From Synechococcus sp. RCC307 (GTDB lineage Bacteria > Cyanobacteriota > Cyanobacteriia > PCC-6307 > Cyanobiaceae): 64,000 nucleotides of DNA. The notes under the pieces are model-generated. The model was not told the origin of the DNA. It saw only the letters and a list, made by a program, of their open reading frames with translations, and did no database searches. Of the stretch, positions 7,663 to 38,374 are shown piece after piece (the first letter of the stretch is position 1; every line of letters starts with the position of its first letter). Location: contig CT978603.1 of NCBI GenBank assembly GCA_000063525.1, positions 553,105 through 617,104 of the forward strand, read 5' to 3'. The translations under genes and the position numbers were made by a program.

Positions 7663-8817
7663 TTAGAGCTGGCCAATGGCTTCCAGCAGCTGATCGATTT
7701 CGGTCTCTGTGCTGAACACATGGGTGCAGGCCCTTAGGCAGAGCGGATCCTCCAGGCTGCGCAGCTGGAAGTGTTGATCCGCTAGGGCGCTCACGGCTGC
7801 TTGGGCTGGGGTGTGATCGATGGTGAAACTCACCAGCCCGCTGGCTGGTGGCGCCTCTTTCACCACGGTTTGCACCCCTGGGATCTGCTGCAACCCATTC
7901 CAGAGGCGCGCACTGCGCTCACAGATCAAGGCTTGTCGTTGCTGGGCGTTGCCCAGTTGCTCCAGCAGGTCCAAGGAGCTGCGCAGGCCGGCACCCAGTG
8001 GAATGCAGCTGGTCGCCACCTCAAAGCGGCGCCCGTCGTGGTGCCACTGGCTGCCGCTGCTGTTCTCATTGCGCAGGCTGCGCCAGCCGATCACGGTGGG
8101 CTGGCTTTGCTCGAGCACCCGCTCAGAGAGCGCCACACCGCCGAGACCCTCAGGGCCGCAGCACCACTTGTGGCCCGTGAAGGCATAGATGTCGGCCGCA
8201 GCAGGCACGCCGCCGAGCTCCAAGCTGCCCATCGATTGGGCCGCATCAACCAGCAGCCAGGGCTGGCGCGGGTGCTGCTTGAGGCGAGCGGCCACCGCTT
8301 CGATCGGCATCGCAAGCCCGCTGTTCCAGAGCAGGTGGGAGAGCACCACCAACCGTGTGCTCGGCTCCAGGGCTGCTTCCAGCGATTCGAGCAGGGCGGC
8401 ATCACTGCGGCAATCACGGGCAGAGAACCAGGAAATGGTGAGGCCTTGGCGCCGCGCCAGCTCTTGGCAAGCGGCCACCACGCCGGGATGTTCCGCATCG
8501 CTGAGCAGCAAGCTGTCGCCCGGTTCAAACGGCAATCCCCACAGCGGCAACACGCAGCCGCTGGTCACGTTTTCCGTGAGGCTGAGCCGGTGCGGTGGCA
8601 CGCCACAGAGCTGGGCCAAGCGTCGCCTGAGGGCTGAGGTTTCGGCTTCCACAAACGGCCACACATCGCGGCTAAAAGGCCCCAGCCGTTGCAGTTCCCT
8701 CCAGCAGGCCACCATCGCCTCCAGTGATGGCGTGGGCAGGGGGCCTTGGCCGCCGTAGTTGAAGTAGTGCTTATTGCCCAGGGCCGGCAGCAGTGATCTG
8801 AGCTCTTCAGCTGGCAT
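7663..8817 (-). CDS. Class V aminotransferase / cysteine desulfurase-like PLP enzyme
   Basis: PLP-dependent fold-type I enzyme of 384 residues. The internal-aldimine lysine lies in T-G-H-K-W-C-C-G-P-E-G (near residue 216), the usual H-K-W of NifS/CsdA relatives, and V-D-A-A-Q-S is the cofactor-binding Asp motif. Whether it is a true cysteine desulfurase is not clear: I do not see the flexible loop with a catalytic Cys in the expected context. The gene starts 74 bases from the divergent GAF-oxidoreductase gene, so they probably share a promoter region. Confidence 0.85.
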   Translation of the reverse strand: MPAEELRSLLPALGNKHYFNYGGQGPLPTPSLEAMVACWRELQRLGPFSRDVWPFVEAETSALRRRLAQLCGVPPHRLSLTENVTSGCVLPLWGLPFEPGDSLLLSDAEHPGVVAACQELARRQGLTISWFSARDCRSDAALLESLEAALEPSTRLVVLSHLLWNSGLAMPIEAVAARLKQHPRQPWLLVDAAQSMGSLELGGVPAAADIYAFTGHKWCCGPEGLGGVALSERVLEQSQPTVIGWRSLRNENSSGSQWHHDGRRFEVATSCIPLGAGLRSSLDLLEQLGNAQQRQALICERSARLWNGLQQIPGVQTVVKEAPPASGLVSFTIDHTPAQAAVSALADQHFQLRSLEDPLCLRACTHVFSTETEIDQLLEAIGQL

Positions 8818-8891
8818 GGCGGCGGCGGGCAGGCGTGTTGCGGTTCAAGCGGATGGGACGGGCCTTTGCAAGCTGATCCGCTTCCTGCACA

Positions 8892-11126
8892 ATGGCGCAA
8901 ATCATTTTTTTAATGGCCGGCCTTCAATCAGTCCTTCAAAAAGTGATTCAAAAGGCCCAGCGTGTTGTTCAACAATCTTCTGGTAAAAGTAATTCGAATA
9001 ATGCTCAAAGTCAGCGAGAATTGAATCGTCCGCATCAACAACGCGGAGCCAATCCAAAGCCGGCCAATGAACCCCAGCGCTTGGATGCGGTCACCGGGTT
9101 AAACCAAGCCAATTCAGAACATCAACCCGAATTGGTTGCGCTGCGTAACGCTGCCCGCTCGCTGTTGAAGATGCCAGTGGCGTTCATTGGCTTCATTGAA
9201 GACAACACCCAGCGCTTGCTTACGGTGACGGTGGCGCCGCAAGGCGAGCAGGCCTGTGATCCGCTGGATTTCAAGGAGATGCTCACCCCCAGGGAGTGCT
9301 CGATTTGTCAGTACACAATCATGGAATCGGATCATTTGGTGATTCCTGATCTCAAGGAGTTTCTTGAGCATGGCGATGGGGCGAGTTACCCGGCTGAATT
9401 TCTCGAGCAGGCCAAACAAGTGGGCGGCTATCCCATCCCCTGGCCCGATGGAGCGGGCGGCATCACGCTGAAGCCGGCGCATTTTTATGCCGGCGCCACG
9501 ATTCGCACCTCCAAAGGCATGCATGTCGGCACCTTTTGTGTGGTGGATGTGGTGCCGCGCCCAGATTTCGGTGTTCGCGAGATTGATGTTCTTGAAAATC
9601 TGGCGGCCCAAGCCGCGGATTATCTGGAAGAGCGCGCTCTGCTGCGCCGGCCGGCCAACTTTCAGCTGCTGCAGCAGCTCTCGAGTGGTGATGACGCCGC
9701 ATCTGAAACCGCGTCATGGGATGCGGTGGTGATCGGTGGAGGGCCCGCCGGACTGACGGCGGCCTGCCGCTTGTCATTTCAAGGGCTCAAGGTGGCGTTG
9801 GTGGAGCCCAAAGAGAGTTTTGGTTCGCCTACCGGCGTGAGCAGCAAGGTGCTGCGGGAAGTGGCGATGGACCACGGTGCTGGGACCTCATGGGATGACG
9901 TGTTGTCGATCCGGCAGCTAATTGCTCAAAACGATGCCAAGCGGGTGGCGTTGCAATTGCAGCGTTATGGCGTCACGCACTTCAAAGGCACTGGCGAAAT
10001 CAGCGGTTGCAACGGCGATGGCATCACCACGGTTGTCGTTCGTGATAGCACCACTGGTGTCAGTGAGCTGTTGGCCCGCAAGGTGGTGGTTTCCACCGGC
10101 TCTAAAGCCCGGCGTCTGGGGGGTATTCCCTTTGAGCAACCTGGCTTTTATGACTCCGATTCGATCGGCTCACTGCGCAGCAAACCCAGCAGCCTGTTTG
10201 TCCAAGGCACTGGAATCATTGCCTTGGAGTACGCCACGATCTTTGCCGAGATGGGCGTTCAGGTGAGCGTTGCAGCGCGTGGCAAGCGCGATGACCTCTT
10301 GCCGATGCTTGATGGCTCGATGCGTGATGCCTTGCTGAGTGATCTGGAAGCCAAAGGGGTTGAGATCCTTTACCAGGCCTGCGTTAAGGGGTGGCGCGCT
10401 GATGAGGTGGGCCCGCTCGTGGAACTGGAGCTGTCAAGCGGCATCAGTGAGCGCCGCTTCTCGGCGGTGCTCTCGGCGGTGGGGCGGGTACCCACAACAC
10501 AAGATCTCGGCATGGAGGTTTTGCTTGAGGCCGACGATGTCAGCAAACTCAAAAAGCTCCCGCTGCTGGAGAACCAGCAATTGGAGACCAATGCGGGATC
10601 GGTCTATGTGATTGGCGATGTCTCCGGTAGCGGGCTGGCGTGTAAAGCCGTGATGCAGGCCCAGGGCTTGGTGGATCACGTGCTGCCCTCGCTGGTGCTG
10701 AAGAGCAAACAGCCCGCCCAGAGCAATCCGAGCCATGCCAGCCCCTCGATCATCTGGGCGATCCCGGAGTTGGCGTTTGTGGGCAGCTCCCAAAGCGAAG
10801 CCATCAACACCTACAGCGAAGCCGAGGTGTTCTCGGTGTTGGCGCCTTTTGCTGACACCATTCGCGGCCGGCTGAAGGCTTTGCCGGCCTCCTATTTCCT
10901 CAAGCTGGTGTGCCTGCGCCAAGACGGCCGCATCTTGGGGGTGCATGTCTACGGGGAAGGCGCCTCTGAGCTCATCCACCTGGGGGCGTCATTGGTTGCC
11001 GATGGCAACACGGTCTTTGACCTGCAATACAAATCCTTTCCGGCCGTCACCTTGCATGAGGTGTACCGCAATGCCGCGATGCTGGCGATCGATACGCTCT
11101 CAGGCTTGGCGCAGAAAACCGGGTAG
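8892..11126 (+). CDS. GAF domain fused to SthA-like pyridine nucleotide flavoprotein oxidoreductase
   Basis: 744-residue fusion. Residues ~1-70 are a Gln/Asn-rich leader with atypical codon use. About 75-250 form a GAF sensor domain (R-E-C-S-I-C near the start, V-G-T-F-C-V-V-D near the end). From ~278 there is an FAD-binding G-G-G-P-A-G-L, an NAD(P)-binding G-T-G-I-I-A-L-E near 437, a second FAD motif V-I-G-D-V-S-G near 570 and a C-terminal dimerisation domain. The order matches soluble transhydrogenase/lipoamide dehydrogenase relatives, but the redox-disulfide site reads S-P-T-G-V-S-S-K-V-L, with no cysteine. It probably moves electrons between nicotinamide cofactors under GAF control; the ligand is unknown. 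The last 27 bases overlap the convergent helicase gene. Confidence 0.85.
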   Translation: MAQIIFLMAGLQSVLQKVIQKAQRVVQQSSGKSNSNNAQSQRELNRPHQQRGANPKPANEPQRLDAVTGLNQANSEHQPELVALRNAARSLLKMPVAFIGFIEDNTQRLLTVTVAPQGEQACDPLDFKEMLTPRECSICQYTIMESDHLVIPDLKEFLEHGDGASYPAEFLEQAKQVGGYPIPWPDGAGGITLKPAHFYAGATIRTSKGMHVGTFCVVDVVPRPDFGVREIDVLENLAAQAADYLEERALLRRPANFQLLQQLSSGDDAASETASWDAVVIGGGPAGLTAACRLSFQGLKVALVEPKESFGSPTGVSSKVLREVAMDHGAGTSWDDVLSIRQLIAQNDAKRVALQLQRYGVTHFKGTGEISGCNGDGITTVVVRDSTTGVSELLARKVVVSTGSKARRLGGIPFEQPGFYDSDSIGSLRSKPSSLFVQGTGIIALEYATIFAEMGVQVSVAARGKRDDLLPMLDGSMRDALLSDLEAKGVEILYQACVKGWRADEVGPLVELELSSGISERRFSAVLSAVGRVPTTQDLGMEVLLEADDVSKLKKLPLLENQQLETNAGSVYVIGDVSGSGLACKAVMQAQGLVDHVLPSLVLKSKQPAQSNPSHASPSIIWAIPELAFVGSSQSEAINTYSEAEVFSVLAPFADTIRGRLKALPASYFLKLVCLRQDGRILGVHVYGEGASELIHLGASLVADGNTVFDLQYKSFPAVTLHEVYRNAAMLAIDTLSGLAQKTG

Positions 11127-12990: not shown

Positions 12991-15900
12991 TTAGCCGCCG
13001 TTGGGCATCAGTTTTTTCATCTGTTTCATCATTCGTTCCATCAGCGATTGCTGTTGGCTCAGCTTGGTTTCAAGCTGCTTGATCTTGTCGTCTTGGCGTT
13101 GATTTTCGGCACTGGCTAGCTCTTTTTCAGCTTCCAGCTCTTCAATGCGTTCACGCAGTAGAGCAATCAATTGCTCGTTGGCTTCTGAGGAGCCAGCTGA
13201 TTGCTGTAGCTGCTCGAGTTGCTCGGTGAGCTTGGCTATTTTCTCAACGTAGAGGGTTTCGGAACCAATAGGACTGGTTTTCCAGAGGCCTCGCACTGGA
13301 TCAGCTTGAGGTGCGGGGTCTGCGGCTTGTTCAGGCTGTGGATCGCTCGGCTTGGGCTTGTTGAGCTTGCCGAGCGGGAAGGAGAAGCCAACTCGCCCGC
13401 CGACCGATGGTGTGGACCCAAATTCGTAGTCGACTGAGGGTGTGTAGGCGATGGCGCCGTTGACGTGCAACCTGTCAGCAACGCGGGCAGCGCAACCGCC
13501 AGCGACGGAATACTGCGAACCCCAGCCACCAGCGCCAAAGCCGCAGCGCACCGGTTCATCTTGTGCGAGTGAAACCTCAGGCAGGCTGGAGAGTGCAGCG
13601 CCCATGGCCCCAGCAGCTTCTACGGCATTGCCGAGGCTGCGTGCTGCAGATTCCAGCTTGGGTAGGCGCTTATTGACGGCGTTATCGAGATCACCGAGTG
13701 AGACCGAGGAGCGCTGCAGGGTGCCGTCTTCATTGGCGGCGACGATGGCGGTCCCGGCCCCAGCAAGGTTGGGCATGGTGACTTCGGTGGTGCTGGTGCC
13801 AATCACCGTGTGGTTATCGCGGGTGGTGACGGCTCCCGTGCCGACTGCAGTAGAGCTGGTGTGAGTTGCTCTAGCTCCAGCACCCAGTGCCGTCACATTG
13901 ACGCCACTGCTGTAAGAACTGGCGCCGATGGAGGTGGCACTGGTGCCATCAGCTACCGCGCCAGCACCAATCGCTGTGGCGTTGGTGTTGTAACCCAGAG
14001 CTTTGGAGCCAGGACCGATGGCAATCGCGCCTACGCCGTTAGCAACAGCACCGGCGCCGATGGCGTAGGAGTTCTGGCCATCGGCATCGGCAAAGCCACC
14101 AATGGCAATGGTGTTTTCTGCGCTCGCATTGGCTCCAAAGCCATAGGCCAACGAACCACGGCCTGCGGCGGTGGAGTTCATGCCAGCAGAGATCGAGCCT
14201 TCTCCTGATGCGTTCGCTTGGACGCCTAAAGAAGTAGAGCCACCGCCGGTGGCTTTCGAAAGTGTGCCTAGAGCTGTTGCGGCTGTTAAGTTCGCAGCGC
14301 CTGCTCCACTATTGGCCAAAGCTCCAGCACCCATGGCTGTAGTGCCAGCTCCGGTGGCATCGGCCTCCTGGCCGTAGCAGGTGGCACCAGCTCCGCCGCT
14401 AAGGCAATAGCTGTTAGGGAGATTCTGGGCAGCGAAAGTGGCAGCTCTGAGAACACCTGTCTGATTGGTGACGACCACAGCAACATCTGTGGTTGAGGCG
14501 GTTAATCCCGGGGTTTGATAGCTGGTGGTTCCAGTGCCAATCGTGATGCGGGACTCGAGGGTTGTGGTTGCGCCAGGGCCAATTGCAACCGCATTGGCGT
14601 GGGTAGCTTGCGCCCCAGCCCCAAGGGCTAAGGCGCTCTGCGCTGAGGCTTGGGCGGCTCGACCAAAGGCAGCGGATTTCACCCCACTCGCGGTGGCAAG
14701 AAAACCAACGGCGGTGGAGCCCAGATCGATTGTGCTAAGTGTTGTGGTTGCATTGGCATAGGCACCAATGGCTGTGGTTCCTATGCCTGTGGCATTGGCA
14801 CCAGGGCCGTAGCAAACAGCGTTGACACCATTGCCTTCGCATTTGAGGGCGTTGTAAGCATTGTCGGAGATATTGATGCCTATGCTGTAGTCGGTGGTGT
14901 AGTTGTTGGCTTCGTTAGAGCCACCTTGTTTTGTCACTATCACCTTGTCATCAGCCGCTGAAACGGTTGTTTGCAGACCGCTGACTGTGTAGCTGGTGGT
15001 GAGTCCACTTTCTTGCTCGCTAATAAAAACATTTTCGCCAGCTTGCAGTTCAACGCCCTTGGCGGAGATGGTGACCGCTCCACCGTAATAACCGTCATCG
15101 TTAGCGCCATTTATAGAACTGATTCGAATGTTTTCGCCTGGTTTGATTAATGCTCCCCTCCCAGAGATATCGATCTCAAAGCCAACATCTACGAAGGGCT
15201 TTTGTCTGAGTGTTCCATCGGTGTCAACTGTGACAAGATGGTATTTGTTATCGTTTGCGTAGCCGAGGTTGGCAATGGTGACTTCCGTTGCTGCCTTGCC
15301 GAGCATGAGTTGATCGGCGCGCGTTGTGGCCGCGCCGGTACCCACTGCCGTGGAGTTTTTGCCGCTGGCTACTGAACCAGCTCCGAGGGCTGTTGACCTC
15401 AGGCCTGAAGCACTGGCTTTAGTTCCGATAGCAACGGCATTTTTTTGAGAAGAAACCTCAGCACTTTGACCAATCGCAATGCTGTTAGCAGTGAGTGCGG
15501 AAGCCCCTCGACCAACTGCAATAGCATCTTGCGCTGCCGCATTTGCGCCAACACCTAATGCCAGTGAGTAATTCAAACTCGCTTTAGAACTCTTCCCGAT
15601 CGCATAAGAGTCCTCACCGCTTGACTGCGCATCTACACCTAATGCAATTGAGCGCCAGCCAGAAGACGAAGCACAGCTGCCGATAGCTATTGCATCTCCC
15701 TTGGCGTTGGCTTCATAACCCAATGCCTGGGAGTAATTGCCGTTGGCGGTGGCTCCAATCCCAATCGCAAATGCTCCCGTACCAGTTGATGTGGCTTTAC
15801 CGGAGCTATCACCAGCCATGGGTGGGTTGGCCTTCGCCAATTGAGGCTGGATCACCTCAGCCACCAGCAATCCCATGCTGCCGGGTTGGCCTAGGACGGC

Positions 15901-16029
15901 CCAGCTGGCGAAGAGCGTCTGCGCTGCTCGGCTCCAGCGACGGCTACGGCTACTGCGACGTGTCTGATTCCCGCGGCGAAACCCGGCTGCGCGGAGAACA
16001 GCGCTGATCAGCAGCAGGCGGGAATTCAC
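12991..16029 (-). CDS. YadA-type trimeric autotransporter adhesin with C-terminal coiled-coil extension
   Basis: 1012-residue surface adhesin, GTG start at 16029. The first ~67 residues form an unusually long, Arg-rich export signal ending near A-K-A. Blocks of ~14-residue YadA head repeats (about 80-240, 405-500 and 545-770) alternate with non-repeat segments that may be neck or stalk. A short neck helix precedes a four-strand anchor domain of about 60-70 residues (~820-885) ending G-F-S-F-P-L-G, which would trimerise into the outer-membrane barrel. Unusually the chain continues 130 residues: a Pro-rich linker, then a heptad coiled coil (~923-1010). Two cysteines fall inside the anchor. It is divergent from the AraC gene and next to glycosyltransferase/sulfotransferase genes, suggesting modification of this adhesin. 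Confidence 0.88.
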   Translation of the reverse strand: MNSRLLLISAVLRAAGFRRGNQTRRSSRSRRWSRAAQTLFASWAVLGQPGSMGLLVAEVIQPQLAKANPPMAGDSSGKATSTGTGAFAIGIGATANGNYSQALGYEANAKGDAIAIGSCASSSGWRSIALGVDAQSSGEDSYAIGKSSKASLNYSLALGVGANAAAQDAIAVGRGASALTANSIAIGQSAEVSSQKNAVAIGTKASASGLRSTALGAGSVASGKNSTAVGTGAATTRADQLMLGKAATEVTIANLGYANDNKYHLVTVDTDGTLRQKPFVDVGFEIDISGRGALIKPGENIRISSINGANDDGYYGGAVTISAKGVELQAGENVFISEQESGLTTSYTVSGLQTTVSAADDKVIVTKQGGSNEANNYTTDYSIGINISDNAYNALKCEGNGVNAVCYGPGANATGIGTTAIGAYANATTTLSTIDLGSTAVGFLATASGVKSAAFGRAAQASAQSALALGAGAQATHANAVAIGPGATTTLESRITIGTGTTSYQTPGLTASTTDVAVVVTNQTGVLRAATFAAQNLPNSYCLSGGAGATCYGQEADATGAGTTAMGAGALANSGAGAANLTAATALGTLSKATGGGSTSLGVQANASGEGSISAGMNSTAAGRGSLAYGFGANASAENTIAIGGFADADGQNSYAIGAGAVANGVGAIAIGPGSKALGYNTNATAIGAGAVADGTSATSIGASSYSSGVNVTALGAGARATHTSSTAVGTGAVTTRDNHTVIGTSTTEVTMPNLAGAGTAIVAANEDGTLQRSSVSLGDLDNAVNKRLPKLESAARSLGNAVEAAGAMGAALSSLPEVSLAQDEPVRCGFGAGGWGSQYSVAGGCAARVADRLHVNGAIAYTPSVDYEFGSTPSVGGRVGFSFPLGKLNKPKPSDPQPEQAADPAPQADPVRGLWKTSPIGSETLYVEKIAKLTEQLEQLQQSAGSSEANEQLIALLRERIEELEAEKELASAENQRQDDKIKQLETKLSQQQSLMERMMKQMKKLMPNGG

Positions 16030-35097: not shown

Positions 35098-36549
35098 ATG
35101 CCCAAGACCTCTGCATTGCTGCCGGTGATCCTTTGTGGTGGCACGGGCACCCGCCTGTGGCCCCTATCGCGGGCGAGTTACCCCAAGCAGTATTGGGCCC
35201 TGGCCCATAACGCCGAAGACACGCTGCTGCAGCTCACCCAACGGCGCCTCGAAGGCTTGCCGGGTCTGGGCTCACCGATCTTGATCTGCAACGAAGACCA
35301 CCGCTTCATCGTGGCCGAGCAGATGCGCCAGCTCGGGGTGGAGCCGGAGTCGATCTTGCTGGAGCCCATGGGCCGCAACACCGCTCCGGCGGTGTGTGTG
35401 GCGGCGTTGCGGGCTACCGCTCGCGGTGAAGACCCCTTGCTGCTGGTGCTGGCGGCTGATCACGTCATCCGTGAGCCCGAGAAGTTCCGCGCCACGGTGG
35501 AAGCCGGGATTCCGGCGGCGGAAGCGGGCCGGCTGGTGACCTTTGGCATCGTGCCCACGGCCCCGGAAACGGGCTACGGCTACATCGAATCGGCTGAGGC
35601 CCTCAATGCCTCCTCGCCGGTGCCGATTGCCCGCTTTGTGGAGAAGCCTGATCGCGCCACCGCCGAGCAGTTTTTGGCCAGTGGCCGTTTCACTTGGAAC
35701 AGCGGCATGTTCCTGTTCCGCGCCAGCGCCATGCTCGCCGAACTCGAGCGCCTGGCCCCTGAATTGGTGAGCTGCTGCCGCTCGGCCCTGGAGCACGACA
35801 CCCCCGACTTGCAGTTCTTGCGGCTTGATCGTGAGGCCTTTGCCCAATGCCCTTCGGTGGCTCTCGATGTGGCTGTGATGGAGCGCACGCCGCTGGGTTC
35901 GGTGTTGCCGCTTGATGCCGGTTGGAGTGATGTGGGCAGCTGGAGTGCCCTATGGGAAACCGCTGATCAAGACGAGAACGGCAACGTCTTGCGCGGTCGC
36001 GTGATCTCGGAAGGCAGCCGCAACTGTTATCTGCGCAGTGAGCACCGCCTGGTGGTGGGCCTGGGCGTTGAAAACCTGGTGGTGGTGGAAACCGATGACG
36101 CCGTGTTGATCGCTGAGCGCAGCCAGGCGCAAAACGTCAAAGCGATCGTTCAGCAGCTCGAAGCCGACGGCAGCTCAGAAGGCAAAGCCCACCGGCGCAT
36201 CTACCGGCCTTGGGGCCACTACACCTCCATCGTTGAGGGCAGCCGCTGGCAGGTGAAGCGCATTTCGGTGAAGCCTGGCGCCAGCCTGTCGCTGCAGATG
36301 CACCACCACCGCGCCGAGCATTGGGTGGTGGTGCGCGGCACGGCCCTGGTGGAGAAGAATGGAGTGGAGGAGCTGATTGGTGAAAACCAGAGCACCTACA
36401 TCCCCTTAGGGGCGCAGCATCGCCTCAGCAACCCGGGCAAGATCCCGGTGGAGATGATCGAGATCCAAAGCGGCGCCTACCTTGGTGAAGACGACATCGT
36501 CCGCCTCGAAGATGTCTACGGCCGCTCGACGGCCGTAAGCCGTGCCTGA
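35098..36549 (+). CDS. manC: Mannose-1-phosphate guanylyltransferase / mannose-6-phosphate isomerase
   Basis: Makes GDP-mannose from mannose-1-phosphate and GTP; the C-terminal cupin is the isomerase of bifunctional forms. About 483 residues from the ATG at 35098. The N-terminus has V-I-L-C-G-G-T-G-T-R-L-W-P-L-S-R, then F-V-E-K-P. The C-terminal cupin (about 365-483) has R-P-W-G-H-Y and V-K-P-G-A-S-L-S-L-Q-M-H-H-H-R-A-E-H-W. The open frame upstream overlaps the preceding GT gene and was not used. The stop overlaps the SLC13 start. Confidence 0.94.
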   Translation: MPKTSALLPVILCGGTGTRLWPLSRASYPKQYWALAHNAEDTLLQLTQRRLEGLPGLGSPILICNEDHRFIVAEQMRQLGVEPESILLEPMGRNTAPAVCVAALRATARGEDPLLLVLAADHVIREPEKFRATVEAGIPAAEAGRLVTFGIVPTAPETGYGYIESAEALNASSPVPIARFVEKPDRATAEQFLASGRFTWNSGMFLFRASAMLAELERLAPELVSCCRSALEHDTPDLQFLRLDREAFAQCPSVALDVAVMERTPLGSVLPLDAGWSDVGSWSALWETADQDENGNVLRGRVISEGSRNCYLRSEHRLVVGLGVENLVVVETDDAVLIAERSQAQNVKAIVQQLEADGSSEGKAHRRIYRPWGHYTSIVEGSRWQVKRISVKPGASLSLQMHHHRAEHWVVVRGTALVEKNGVEELIGENQSTYIPLGAQHRLSNPGKIPVEMIEIQSGAYLGEDDIVRLEDVYGRSTAVSRA

Positions 36550-38374
36550 AGCCGCTGGATTTCTTGCTGCTGCCAGCACGCCGCACGGGTTAATCACCCT
36601 GCTGGTGTTTGCCGTTTCGCTGGTTCTGTTCATCAGCGGTTGGTTGGCGCCTGAGCTCACGGGCCTCTTGGCTGTGGCGCTGCTGGTCAGCTTTGGCGTG
36701 CTGGACCCGCAGCAGGCGGTCAAGGGGTTTGGCAGCCCGGCCCTCATCACCTTGATGGGTTTGTTTGCCCTTTCGGCGGGCCTGTTCCGCAGCGGCGGGG
36801 TGGATCGCTTGCGGGCGATTCTCGGCTCGGAATCCGTGCGCACGCCGCGGCGCATGATCCTGCTGCTGGTGGCGGTGGTCTCGCCGCTGTCGGGCTTCAT
36901 TCCCAATACACCGATAGTGGCCACCCTGCTGCCGGTGCTTGAGAACTGGTGCCATCGCCGCGGAATTTCCCCCTCGAAGGTGATGCTGCCGATGTCGTTT
37001 GCCGTGGTGATCGGCGGCACCATCACCCTGCTGGGCACCTCCACCAACCTGCTGGCCAGTGATGTCAGCCGGCAGTTGGGTTATGGCGGCATTGATCTGT
37101 TTGATTTCACCCCCATCGGCCTGCCCATTTGGCTGCTGGGTGCCCTCTACATGGTGGTGGTGGGTGATCGCTTCCTGCCCGATCGCGGCCAAGACGATGA
37201 CCTGATGGCGGCGATGGCCAAGCAGGGCTATTTCACCGAAGTGTTGATCCCGCGGGGCTCGGAGCTGGTGGGCCAGTCACTCCACAACAGCCGCCTGCAG
37301 CGCCGCTTTGATGTTGATGTGCTGGAGCTGCACCGCGGCAGTCAGAGCTTTGGTGCGCCCCTGGCTGACTTGGAATTGCAAGCTGGCGATCGCATGCTCT
37401 TGCGCTGCCGCAAAGAGGATCTATTGCGCTTGCAGCAGGAGCACACCATTGCGCTTGCTCCTATTTCACCAGTTGCTTTGTCCGCTTCTGAGAAAGCCCA
37501 ACAAATGCCCTCTGTCGGAAGAAAAAGACTGGTTGAAGTCTTACTGCCTGCGGGTTCAAATATCGCTGGGAGCAGTGTTCGTGAGCTGCGCTTCCGGCAG
37601 CGTTACAACGCCACGCTCTTAGCTGTAAGACGTGGGCAGGAAGTGATTAAAGATTTGCTTGGAAAAGTTGTTCTCCAGGCTGGTGATGTTCTCCTGATAC
37701 AGGCGCCGACAGACACAATCCGTGGTCTGCAGAACAGTAATGACCTGGTGCTGCTCGATGAACTTGAGAAAGATCTGCCTACCACCAGCCGCAAAGGCAT
37801 CGCCATCGGCATCTGCATCGCTGTGATCCTGCTGCCGATGCTGCAGGTTTTGGATCTGATGGCGTCGGTGCTGTTTGGCGTCGTGCTGATGGTGGCCACC
37901 GGTTGCCTCAGGCCGGGTGAGTTGCAACGGGCGATTCGCTGGGACGTGATCCTGCTGCTGGGTTCGATCGTCTGCTTCAGCGTGGCGATGCAAAGCACCG
38001 GTTTGGCCAGGGGGTTGGCGGTTGACCTGCTGCAGTCACTGCAGGGTTGGCCCAACTACTTGGTGCTGATGGTGGTGTTCCTGTTGGCCCAGCTGTTCAC
38101 CGAGACCCTCACCAATGGCGCCACCGTGGTGTTGCTCATCCCAATTGCCACCGAGTTGGCCAAAGGCTTGGCCCTGCCGCCGATGGCTTTCATCTACGCC
38201 ATCTTGTTTGCGGCCAGCCTCAGCTTCCTGACGCCGATTGGCTACCAGTGCAACTTGATGGTGATGGGGCCTGGTCGCTATCGCTTCTTTGACATGACCC
38301 GCTACGGGGCACCGCTCACCATTGGCCTCACGCTGTTAACCCCCTGGCTGATCTGCCGCCACTTCGGCCTCTAG
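36542..38374 (+). CDS. SLC13 (Na+/sulfate or dicarboxylate symporter-like) permease with two RCK_C domains
   Basis: 610-residue transporter: N-terminal membrane half (about 15-215), two TrkA/RCK_C domains (about 220-310 and 320-400), then the second membrane half (to 610). S-G-F-I-P-N-T-P-I and the G-T-S-T-N-L-L loop are the SLC13 sodium and substrate motif region. Cyanobacterial members move sulfate or other anions; the specificity cannot be read. GTG start at 36542. The middle part has atypical composition (see findings). Confidence 0.88.
   Translation: MPEAAGFLAAASTPHGLITLLVFAVSLVLFISGWLAPELTGLLAVALLVSFGVLDPQQAVKGFGSPALITLMGLFALSAGLFRSGGVDRLRAILGSESVRTPRRMILLLVAVVSPLSGFIPNTPIVATLLPVLENWCHRRGISPSKVMLPMSFAVVIGGTITLLGTSTNLLASDVSRQLGYGGIDLFDFTPIGLPIWLLGALYMVVVGDRFLPDRGQDDDLMAAMAKQGYFTEVLIPRGSELVGQSLHNSRLQRRFDVDVLELHRGSQSFGAPLADLELQAGDRMLLRCRKEDLLRLQQEHTIALAPISPVALSASEKAQQMPSVGRKRLVEVLLPAGSNIAGSSVRELRFRQRYNATLLAVRRGQEVIKDLLGKVVLQAGDVLLIQAPTDTIRGLQNSNDLVLLDELEKDLPTTSRKGIAIGICIAVILLPMLQVLDLMASVLFGVVLMVATGCLRPGELQRAIRWDVILLLGSIVCFSVAMQSTGLARGLAVDLLQSLQGWPNYLVLMVVFLLAQLFTETLTNGATVVLLIPIATELAKGLALPPMAFIYAILFAASLSFLTPIGYQCNLMVMGPGRYRFFDMTRYGAPLTIGLTLLTPWLICRHFGL

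Follow-up and report, generated by a model that had tools for sequence, protein, structure and literature searches.

Two groups of described flavoenzymes stand closest to the protein analysed here. According to the accessible part of one report (PMC9460512), soluble transhydrogenases (STHs) are set apart by a CxxxxT motif at the redox site and a C-terminal YxxxxE motif, an STH with SxxxxT is known from Streptomyces avermitilis, and changing the Cys or the Thr of SthA lowers coupling. The second group has the flavoprotein-disulfide-reductase (FDR) fold without an intact redox disulfide, and what follows on it is taken from the accessible part of PMC6296175. Yeast Irc15p lacks both redox cysteines and is reduced by NADH and by NADPH; its acceptors are ferricyanide, DCPIP, MTT and menadione, whereas lipoic acid, glutathione and cystine are not reduced, and NAD(P)H induces structural changes and lowers its thermal stability. 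LpdA (Rv3303c) of M. tuberculosis lacks one cysteine and the His-Glu pair, and it reduces quinones.

The gene that we compare with these systems lies in a 64,000-nucleotide stretch (the window) of the genome of Synechococcus sp. RCC307, which is a single contig of 2,224,914 bases. It occupies positions 8892..11126 on the plus strand, as do all of the gene's features below, and runs from an ATG start through 744 codons to a stop. Intact orthologues were found in Synechococcus sp. TMED19 (L021, 73% identity to the window protein), in an uncultured Synechococcus (L022, 74%), and in the metagenome-assembled genome (MAG) of an uncultured proteobacterium (L023, 56%). An earlier note on this DNA had described the product as a GAF domain joined to a lipoamide-dehydrogenase-like flavoprotein without redox cysteines, and both the domain matches and an alignment with 13 relatives bear this out.

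The flavoprotein half and its active site

The C-terminal part of the protein matches two Pfam families above their cut-offs, Pyr_redox_2 at aa 277-590 (E 1.9e-33) and Pyr_redox_dim at aa 618-728 (E 1e-14). By Pfam and by fold comparison it has the FAD/NAD(P)/dimerisation architecture of FDRs of the lipoamide dehydrogenase type, and aa 274-744 form a complete FDR fold that includes the FAD motifs, a dinucleotide motif of NADP type and a dimer domain. The two FAD motifs and one NAD(P) motif counted in the earlier note were located at aa 282-287 (GGGPAG), 575-576 (GD) and 439-444 (GTGIIA). GGGPAG belongs to the first FAD-binding motif (aa 277-305, GGGPAG...VALVE; 9720..9806), which is seen in Pfam and in the alignments. 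The second dinucleotide motif (aa 436-466; 10197..10289) reads GTGIIALEY in the window protein and, after the second strand, AARGKR; GTG[IV]IA and AARGxR are common to all four intact fusions in the alignment. Among the 13 aligned relatives, 12 have GxGxxG, and the one with GxGxxA is a glutathione-reductase-like protein of the window's own genome. In this superfamily GxGxxA together with basic residues indicates NADPH. We therefore read the second motif as NADP-type. From the motifs we infer that the fusion uses FAD and NADPH.

The nearest kin of this half are STHs and lipoamide dehydrogenases, at 23-32% identity. Among NCBIfam families the Si-specific transhydrogenase (NF003585) scores best (E 1.9e-63), its 214.7 bits lying below the curated cut-off of 465. 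The best PDB match by sequence, the soluble transhydrogenase 9n4y, is also the best match by fold (Z 37.1 over aa 274-736, 28% identity), tied with lipoamide dehydrogenases at Z 36.9 and below. The fold lists show flavoprotein matches only and are not informative on the GAF domain. A tree of 17 rows, in which 7 of the 14 inner branches are open, places the fusion neither among the STHs nor among the lipoamide dehydrogenases and does not resolve the FDR subgroup of its origin. A first structure model, built from 4 sequences (mean pLDDT 42.1), was dropped. The second, from 15 sequences (mean pLDDT 68.6), is good enough to use for the flavoprotein, but neither for the redox loop nor for the GAF domain's N-terminal half: it is confident for most of aa 274-744, with pLDDT below 50 at aa 311-316 (the redox loop), 545-563, 604-615 and 658-662 and across the first half of the GAF domain.

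The earlier note read the redox site as S-P-T-G-V-S-S. That string is present at aa 312-318, but it does not represent a CxxxxC motif whose cysteines were exchanged, as the segment around it (aa 310-325, FGSPTGVSSKVLREVA; 9819..9866) is four residues shorter than in all 13 aligned relatives. This shortening rules out a simple Cys-to-Ser loss. All four intact fusions read FG[SA]PT----G[VI]xSKVLREVA in the alignment, with no Cys in the segment; 12 of the 13 relatives have CxxxxC or CxxxxT there and one (L043) has SxxxxT. Relative to SthA, about 14 further residues are missing behind the helix of the redox segment. The C-terminal site (aa 716-723, FPAVTLHE; 11037..11060) is changed as well: the His-Glu or Tyr-Glu of the relatives has become Ala-Glu, with Ala718 in place of the His of FDRs or the Tyr of STHs, Glu723 kept, and His722 directly before it. 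AxxxxE is found in all four intact fusions, which thus share both the shortened redox segment and the altered C-terminal pair. Neither CxxxxT nor YxxxxE, the two marks of the STHs, occurs in any of the four, and the redox disulfide CxxxxC and the C-terminal His-Glu pair of FDRs are likewise absent from the fusion.

Three STH-like flavoproteins with a CVHTGT site (L035, L036 and L037) come from the same class as the proteobacterial MAG (G296). Two of them (L035 and L036) have FxxxxE at the C-terminal site, so the Tyr varies outside the fusions too. Three cysteines of the flavoprotein half, Cys292, Cys584 and Cys674, are invariant in the four intact fusions; Cys584 lies in GLACKA (10641..10643), where several lipoamide dehydrogenases have LAHKA. 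As a separate observation, Pseudomonas phage Y11 (L044) carries at 35453-37017 a complete, unannotated lipoamide-dehydrogenase-like gene with CxxxxC, in a record marked UNVERIFIED that possibly contains bacterial contamination.

Compared with SthA/UdhA (9n4y), then, the fusion has the same fold, and neither protein has a complete redox disulfide or the FDR His (for SthA, from the accessible part of PMC9460512). The fusion differs in lacking CxxxxT and YxxxxE, in its four-residue deletion at the redox site, in a two-residue insert with AARGxR in the NAD(P) domain, and in its fused GAF domain, which is absent from the aligned SthA rows. The two absent motifs and the family score below the cut-off rule out a plain SthA orthologue. 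With lipoamide dehydrogenase the fusion shares the domain order and the FAD motifs as well as the fold; since it has neither CxxxxC nor the His-Glu pair, dithiol-disulfide exchange is not expected of it, unlike lipoamide dehydrogenase. It is like Irc15p and LpdA in having an FDR fold without the disulfide (LpdA, 1xdi, scores Z 35.2 in the fold comparison), and it differs from them in its GAF domain, none being mentioned for either protein in the accessible part of PMC6296175.

The GAF half and the N terminus

The GAF domain covers aa ~49-256 (9036..9659) and was identified by Pfam, tblastn, alignment and profile searches. Its Pfam matches lie below the curated cut-offs, with GAF_2 at aa 86-246 (E 1.1e-3, 19.6 bits against 28.6) and GAF at aa 136-242 (E 4.3e-3, 18 bits against 22.4). 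When aa 50-258 were compared with plasmids by tblastn, 1058 records matched, and 997 of these covered 80% of the query or more. Heading the list is a Deinococcus diguanylate cyclase (E 3e-16, 31.8% identity, 94% of the query), and among the matches listed the annotated rows are diguanylate cyclases, EAL/phosphodiesterase proteins and a histidine kinase. When only the four fusion GAFs go into a profile, the diguanylate cyclase 4zmu is the sole PDB sequence recovered at E <= 0.1; it reaches E 1.4e-4 over the whole chain, no single stretch passing by itself. The single-sequence GAF query finds 4zmu at E 2.3e-5, with the next match at chance level (1.2). A mixed GAF profile reaches E 3.2e-31 for 4zmu, a value that is partly circular because canonical GAFs were included in that profile. 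From the tblastn and 4zmu matches, we conclude that the domain is homologous to accepted GAF domains over their length.

The fusion GAF and the GAFs of diguanylate cyclases and histidine kinases (4zmu; L025, L026 and L045) have in common an NE/EExxRL start region, S-[IF]-C-x-Y-T-x-M, Y-x-G and G-x-x-x-G-x-x-C-V-x-D, and ESICQYTIME or a near-identical string is found in two Bacteroidota histidine kinases (L025 and L026). By its matches, the fusion GAF is of the sensor type that diguanylate cyclases and histidine kinases carry. Compared with three canonical relatives it has three inserts, about 10, 11 and 13 residues long; the alignment puts the second at aa 157-167 (9360..9392) and the third at aa 182-194 (IPWPDGAGGITLK; 9435..9473), both absent from those three, and the IPWP of the 13-residue insert is invariant in the four intact fusions. 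The output differs too, being a flavoenzyme in the fusion and a kinase or GGDEF domain in the canonical kin.

The GAF domain is also the most constrained part of the fusion. For L021 and L022, the closest pair, dN/dS is 0.097 overall; by region it is 0.026 (GAF domain), 0.112 (flavoprotein) and 0.245 (aa 1-48). Values for the intact fusions range from 0.10 to 0.16, and they are under purifying selection. Its family and its conservation together suggest that the GAF domain may regulate the flavoprotein. The tuning of a transhydrogenase or diaphorase activity by it, as the earlier note proposed, is plausible.

Ahead of the GAF domain, aa 1-48 are poorly conserved (27% between the window protein and L021). 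They include a basic amphipathic helix at aa 10-28 (8919..8975), itself poorly conserved, with a hydrophobic moment of 0.66, the highest of the protein; the structure model has a helix at aa 2-30 with low confidence. In the cyanobacterial copies the moment of this helix is 0.60-0.66, ranking highest in the window protein and in the piece from the broken copy L024 described below and fifth in L021 and L022. The best N-terminal stretch of L023 has a moment of 0.60 and a mean hydrophobicity of -0.74. Contact of the helix with a membrane or a partner is possible, and membrane contact would suit a quinone reductase, which we offer only as a suggestion.

Distribution, neighbourhood and a broken copy

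The fusion is present in three of the six genomes of the window's genus. Across the family, 3 of 300 genomes match at 1e-60, all of them of that genus, and across the class 1 of 291, the window's own, matches at E <= 1e-30; in both searches three candidates per genome were scored among the rows listed. The GAF domain alone finds 1 of 386 genomes in the window's phylum, again its own. In the class of the proteobacterial genome G296, 4 of 52 genomes match at 1e-40; G296 is the only one whose match extends beyond the flavoprotein half, and the other three carry the CVHTGT site. A GAF profile finds 1 of 377 genomes in the phylum of G296 (G296 itself). Among 198 genomes of the class to which a Dyadobacter genome belongs it finds 0, an uninformative result in a set without a positive control. 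The fusion query matches 1982 plasmid records and 53 phages, none covering 80% of it, and no relative of the fusion or of its GAF was found among viral contigs. A scan of genome contigs by exact 8-residue patterns, which reaches near relatives only, returned 33 stretches with 6 relatives; both halves are present in 4 of these. The literature searched held no report of GAF combined with a pyridine nucleotide-disulfide oxidoreductase, Pyr_redox_2, a dihydrolipoamide dehydrogenase, or a transhydrogenase or other flavoprotein, and nothing on cyclic-nucleotide-binding thioredoxin reductases or filamentous transhydrogenase. The rarity claimed in the earlier note thus holds, no common architecture with a known function having been met within the reach of the search, and its interpretation taken whole is partly supported. 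By sequence comparison, the fusion is built of known domains, but it has an unusual active site and an architecture not found elsewhere within that reach.

In the window the fusion is flanked by an aminotransferase gene and, on the other strand, a helicase-like gene, whose convergent ORF is overlapped by the fusion's 3' end over 27 bases (11100-11126). In L021 (3736-4691) and L022 (3725-4680) the aminotransferase is separated from the fusion by an OsmC-like gene (Pfam OsmC, E 4e-10 in L021) and an ORF of 169 aa. Neither lies at this place in the window (7663-8891), where the aminotransferase and the fusion are 74 bases apart. We rejected OsmC as a partner, as it is not beside the window fusion and an OsmC-like ORF is present at a site without the fusion. 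That site is in G292 (90% complete), with the order helicase, OsmC-like ORF, aminotransferase, murE end. G293 and G294 gave no match, but these genomes are 82% and 74% complete, and the contig of G293 breaks off within the aminotransferase gene, so that a copy may have been missed. Further along the window, on the minus strand at 12991-16029, a gene encodes a 1012-aa YadA-like protein (YadA head repeats E 9.8e-45, YadA anchor E 6.5e-11), by its domains a trimeric-autotransporter-type adhesin in a marine cyanobacterium.

The GC content of L023 is 64.6% for the contig and 64.9% for the fusion gene; the corresponding values for the window are 61.7% and 58.0%. A 1124-aa neighbour of the L023 fusion has relatives with 46-59% identity in 2 of 12 other genomes of its class (G340 and G349) and none in four Synechococcus genomes, so that 3 of 17 genomes matched overall, its own included. 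The simplest reading is that the fusion gene was transferred between cyanobacterial and proteobacterial lineages, with L023 as one contig of one MAG on the proteobacterial side.

A further copy, in the single-cell genome of Synechococcus AG-673-B04 (L024, G297), is broken: it has one TAG inside, its match is split over two frames, and of the two cysteines in CSICQYTI the first is missing. On its contig there are also two genes resembling integrases (PHROG E 4.2e-13 and 4.6e-35), one gene with the domains PriCT_2 and AAA_25, and a fragment like a terminase large subunit (E 1.2e-8); for two further ORFs of this contig no PHROG match was obtained. The integrase-like genes and the terminase fragment flank the broken fusion (L080, 11007-11480, and L081, 6452-13049, on contig C10 of G297), and the murE-aminotransferase locus of AG-673-B04 is on another contig with no fusion beside it. 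The mobile genes look like a phage-satellite-like island. This suggests how the fusion gene may move, and it is not proof of carriage between phyla.

Candidate functions and their meaning

Since the redox cysteine pair is missing, the fusion probably passes electrons from NADPH to another acceptor under sensor control. The explanation that we prefer, and hold with about even confidence, is of a dimeric FAD enzyme that has given up disulfide chemistry and has become a GAF-regulated, NADPH-dependent enzyme like diaphorases or quinone reductases, spread horizontally. NADPH would reduce the FAD by hydride transfer, and the reduced flavin, lacking both the cysteine pair and the usual acid-base His nearby, would pass electrons directly to an acceptor that is not a disulfide. 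A quinone or another acceptor of the diaphorase type is the most likely one, and NAD+ comes second. The N-terminal GAF domain would bind a small ligand or sense redox state and thereby change the activity or the assembly of the dimer. Having moved horizontally, the gene would be found in one lineage of Synechococcus as a single gene. We weight quinone or diaphorase chemistry above nucleotide exchange because both marks of the STHs are gone, and the cysteine-lacking Irc15p and LpdA, as far as the accessible part of PMC6296175 describes them, point at least as much to diaphorase or quinone-reductase chemistry. Several points go against it: the best family score is that of a transhydrogenase, the model has low confidence at the redox loop and in the first half of the GAF domain, Cys584 could be a new redox residue, and the tree does not settle the FDR subgroup of origin.

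The transhydrogenase score belongs to a rival that we consider possible but doubtful, in which a GAF-regulated soluble transhydrogenase has its flavin reduced by NADPH and its hydride taken by NAD+, relieving an NADPH surplus in the photosynthetic cell. The Si-specific transhydrogenase match and 9n4y, best in the PDB by both sequence and fold, speak for it, and the STH with SxxxxT means that the Cys is not essential (accessible part of PMC9460512). Membership is weakened, however, because both signature sites are absent, and the 215 bits fall short of 465, with lipoamide dehydrogenases level by fold. Rather improbable, in our judgement, is a redox sensor in place of a metabolic enzyme, with the flavoprotein reading the NADPH/NADP+ ratio and signalling, together with the GAF domain, to a partner by a change of conformation or binding. 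It would fit a GAF domain that is the most constrained part of the protein and has signalling proteins as its kin, as well as the response of Irc15p to NAD(P)H (accessible part of PMC6296175). Yet the fusion has its GAF domain at the N terminus, the usual place of an input domain, and no partner gene was recognised among its adjoining genes in the window, the aminotransferase and the helicase-like gene.

An enzyme that is still redox-active through thiols, using another cysteine such as Cys584 in place of the lost pair, is highly unlikely; the three invariant cysteines, one of them replacing the His of LAHKA, invite the idea, but no second conserved cysteine lies beside Cys584 in the sequence. 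Least credible of all is a decaying or misassembled gene without function. L024 is such a broken copy, but the window copy and three from separate assemblies share the joint and an open frame, and their dN/dS is that of constrained genes (see above).

The preferred reading, an NADPH-oxidizing flavoenzyme under GAF control, can be extended to a bolder one that is tentative and, taken whole, unlikely: a ligand-gated NADPH oxidoreductase with the GAF domain as a direct allosteric switch and a deleted redox segment, moving between marine bacteria on phage-satellite-like islands and draining or reporting an NADPH surplus. Horizontal spread can be traced in this case, given the rarity of the fusion, a relative that has the site but no fusion, and a broken copy next to integrase genes. 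If the preferred reading is right, a sensory domain common in second-messenger signalling would directly control NADPH oxidation within one polypeptide, in a photosynthetic cell for which NADPH surplus is a central problem, and the fusion would be a natural test of an FDR scaffold whose redox segment has been deleted rather than mutated.
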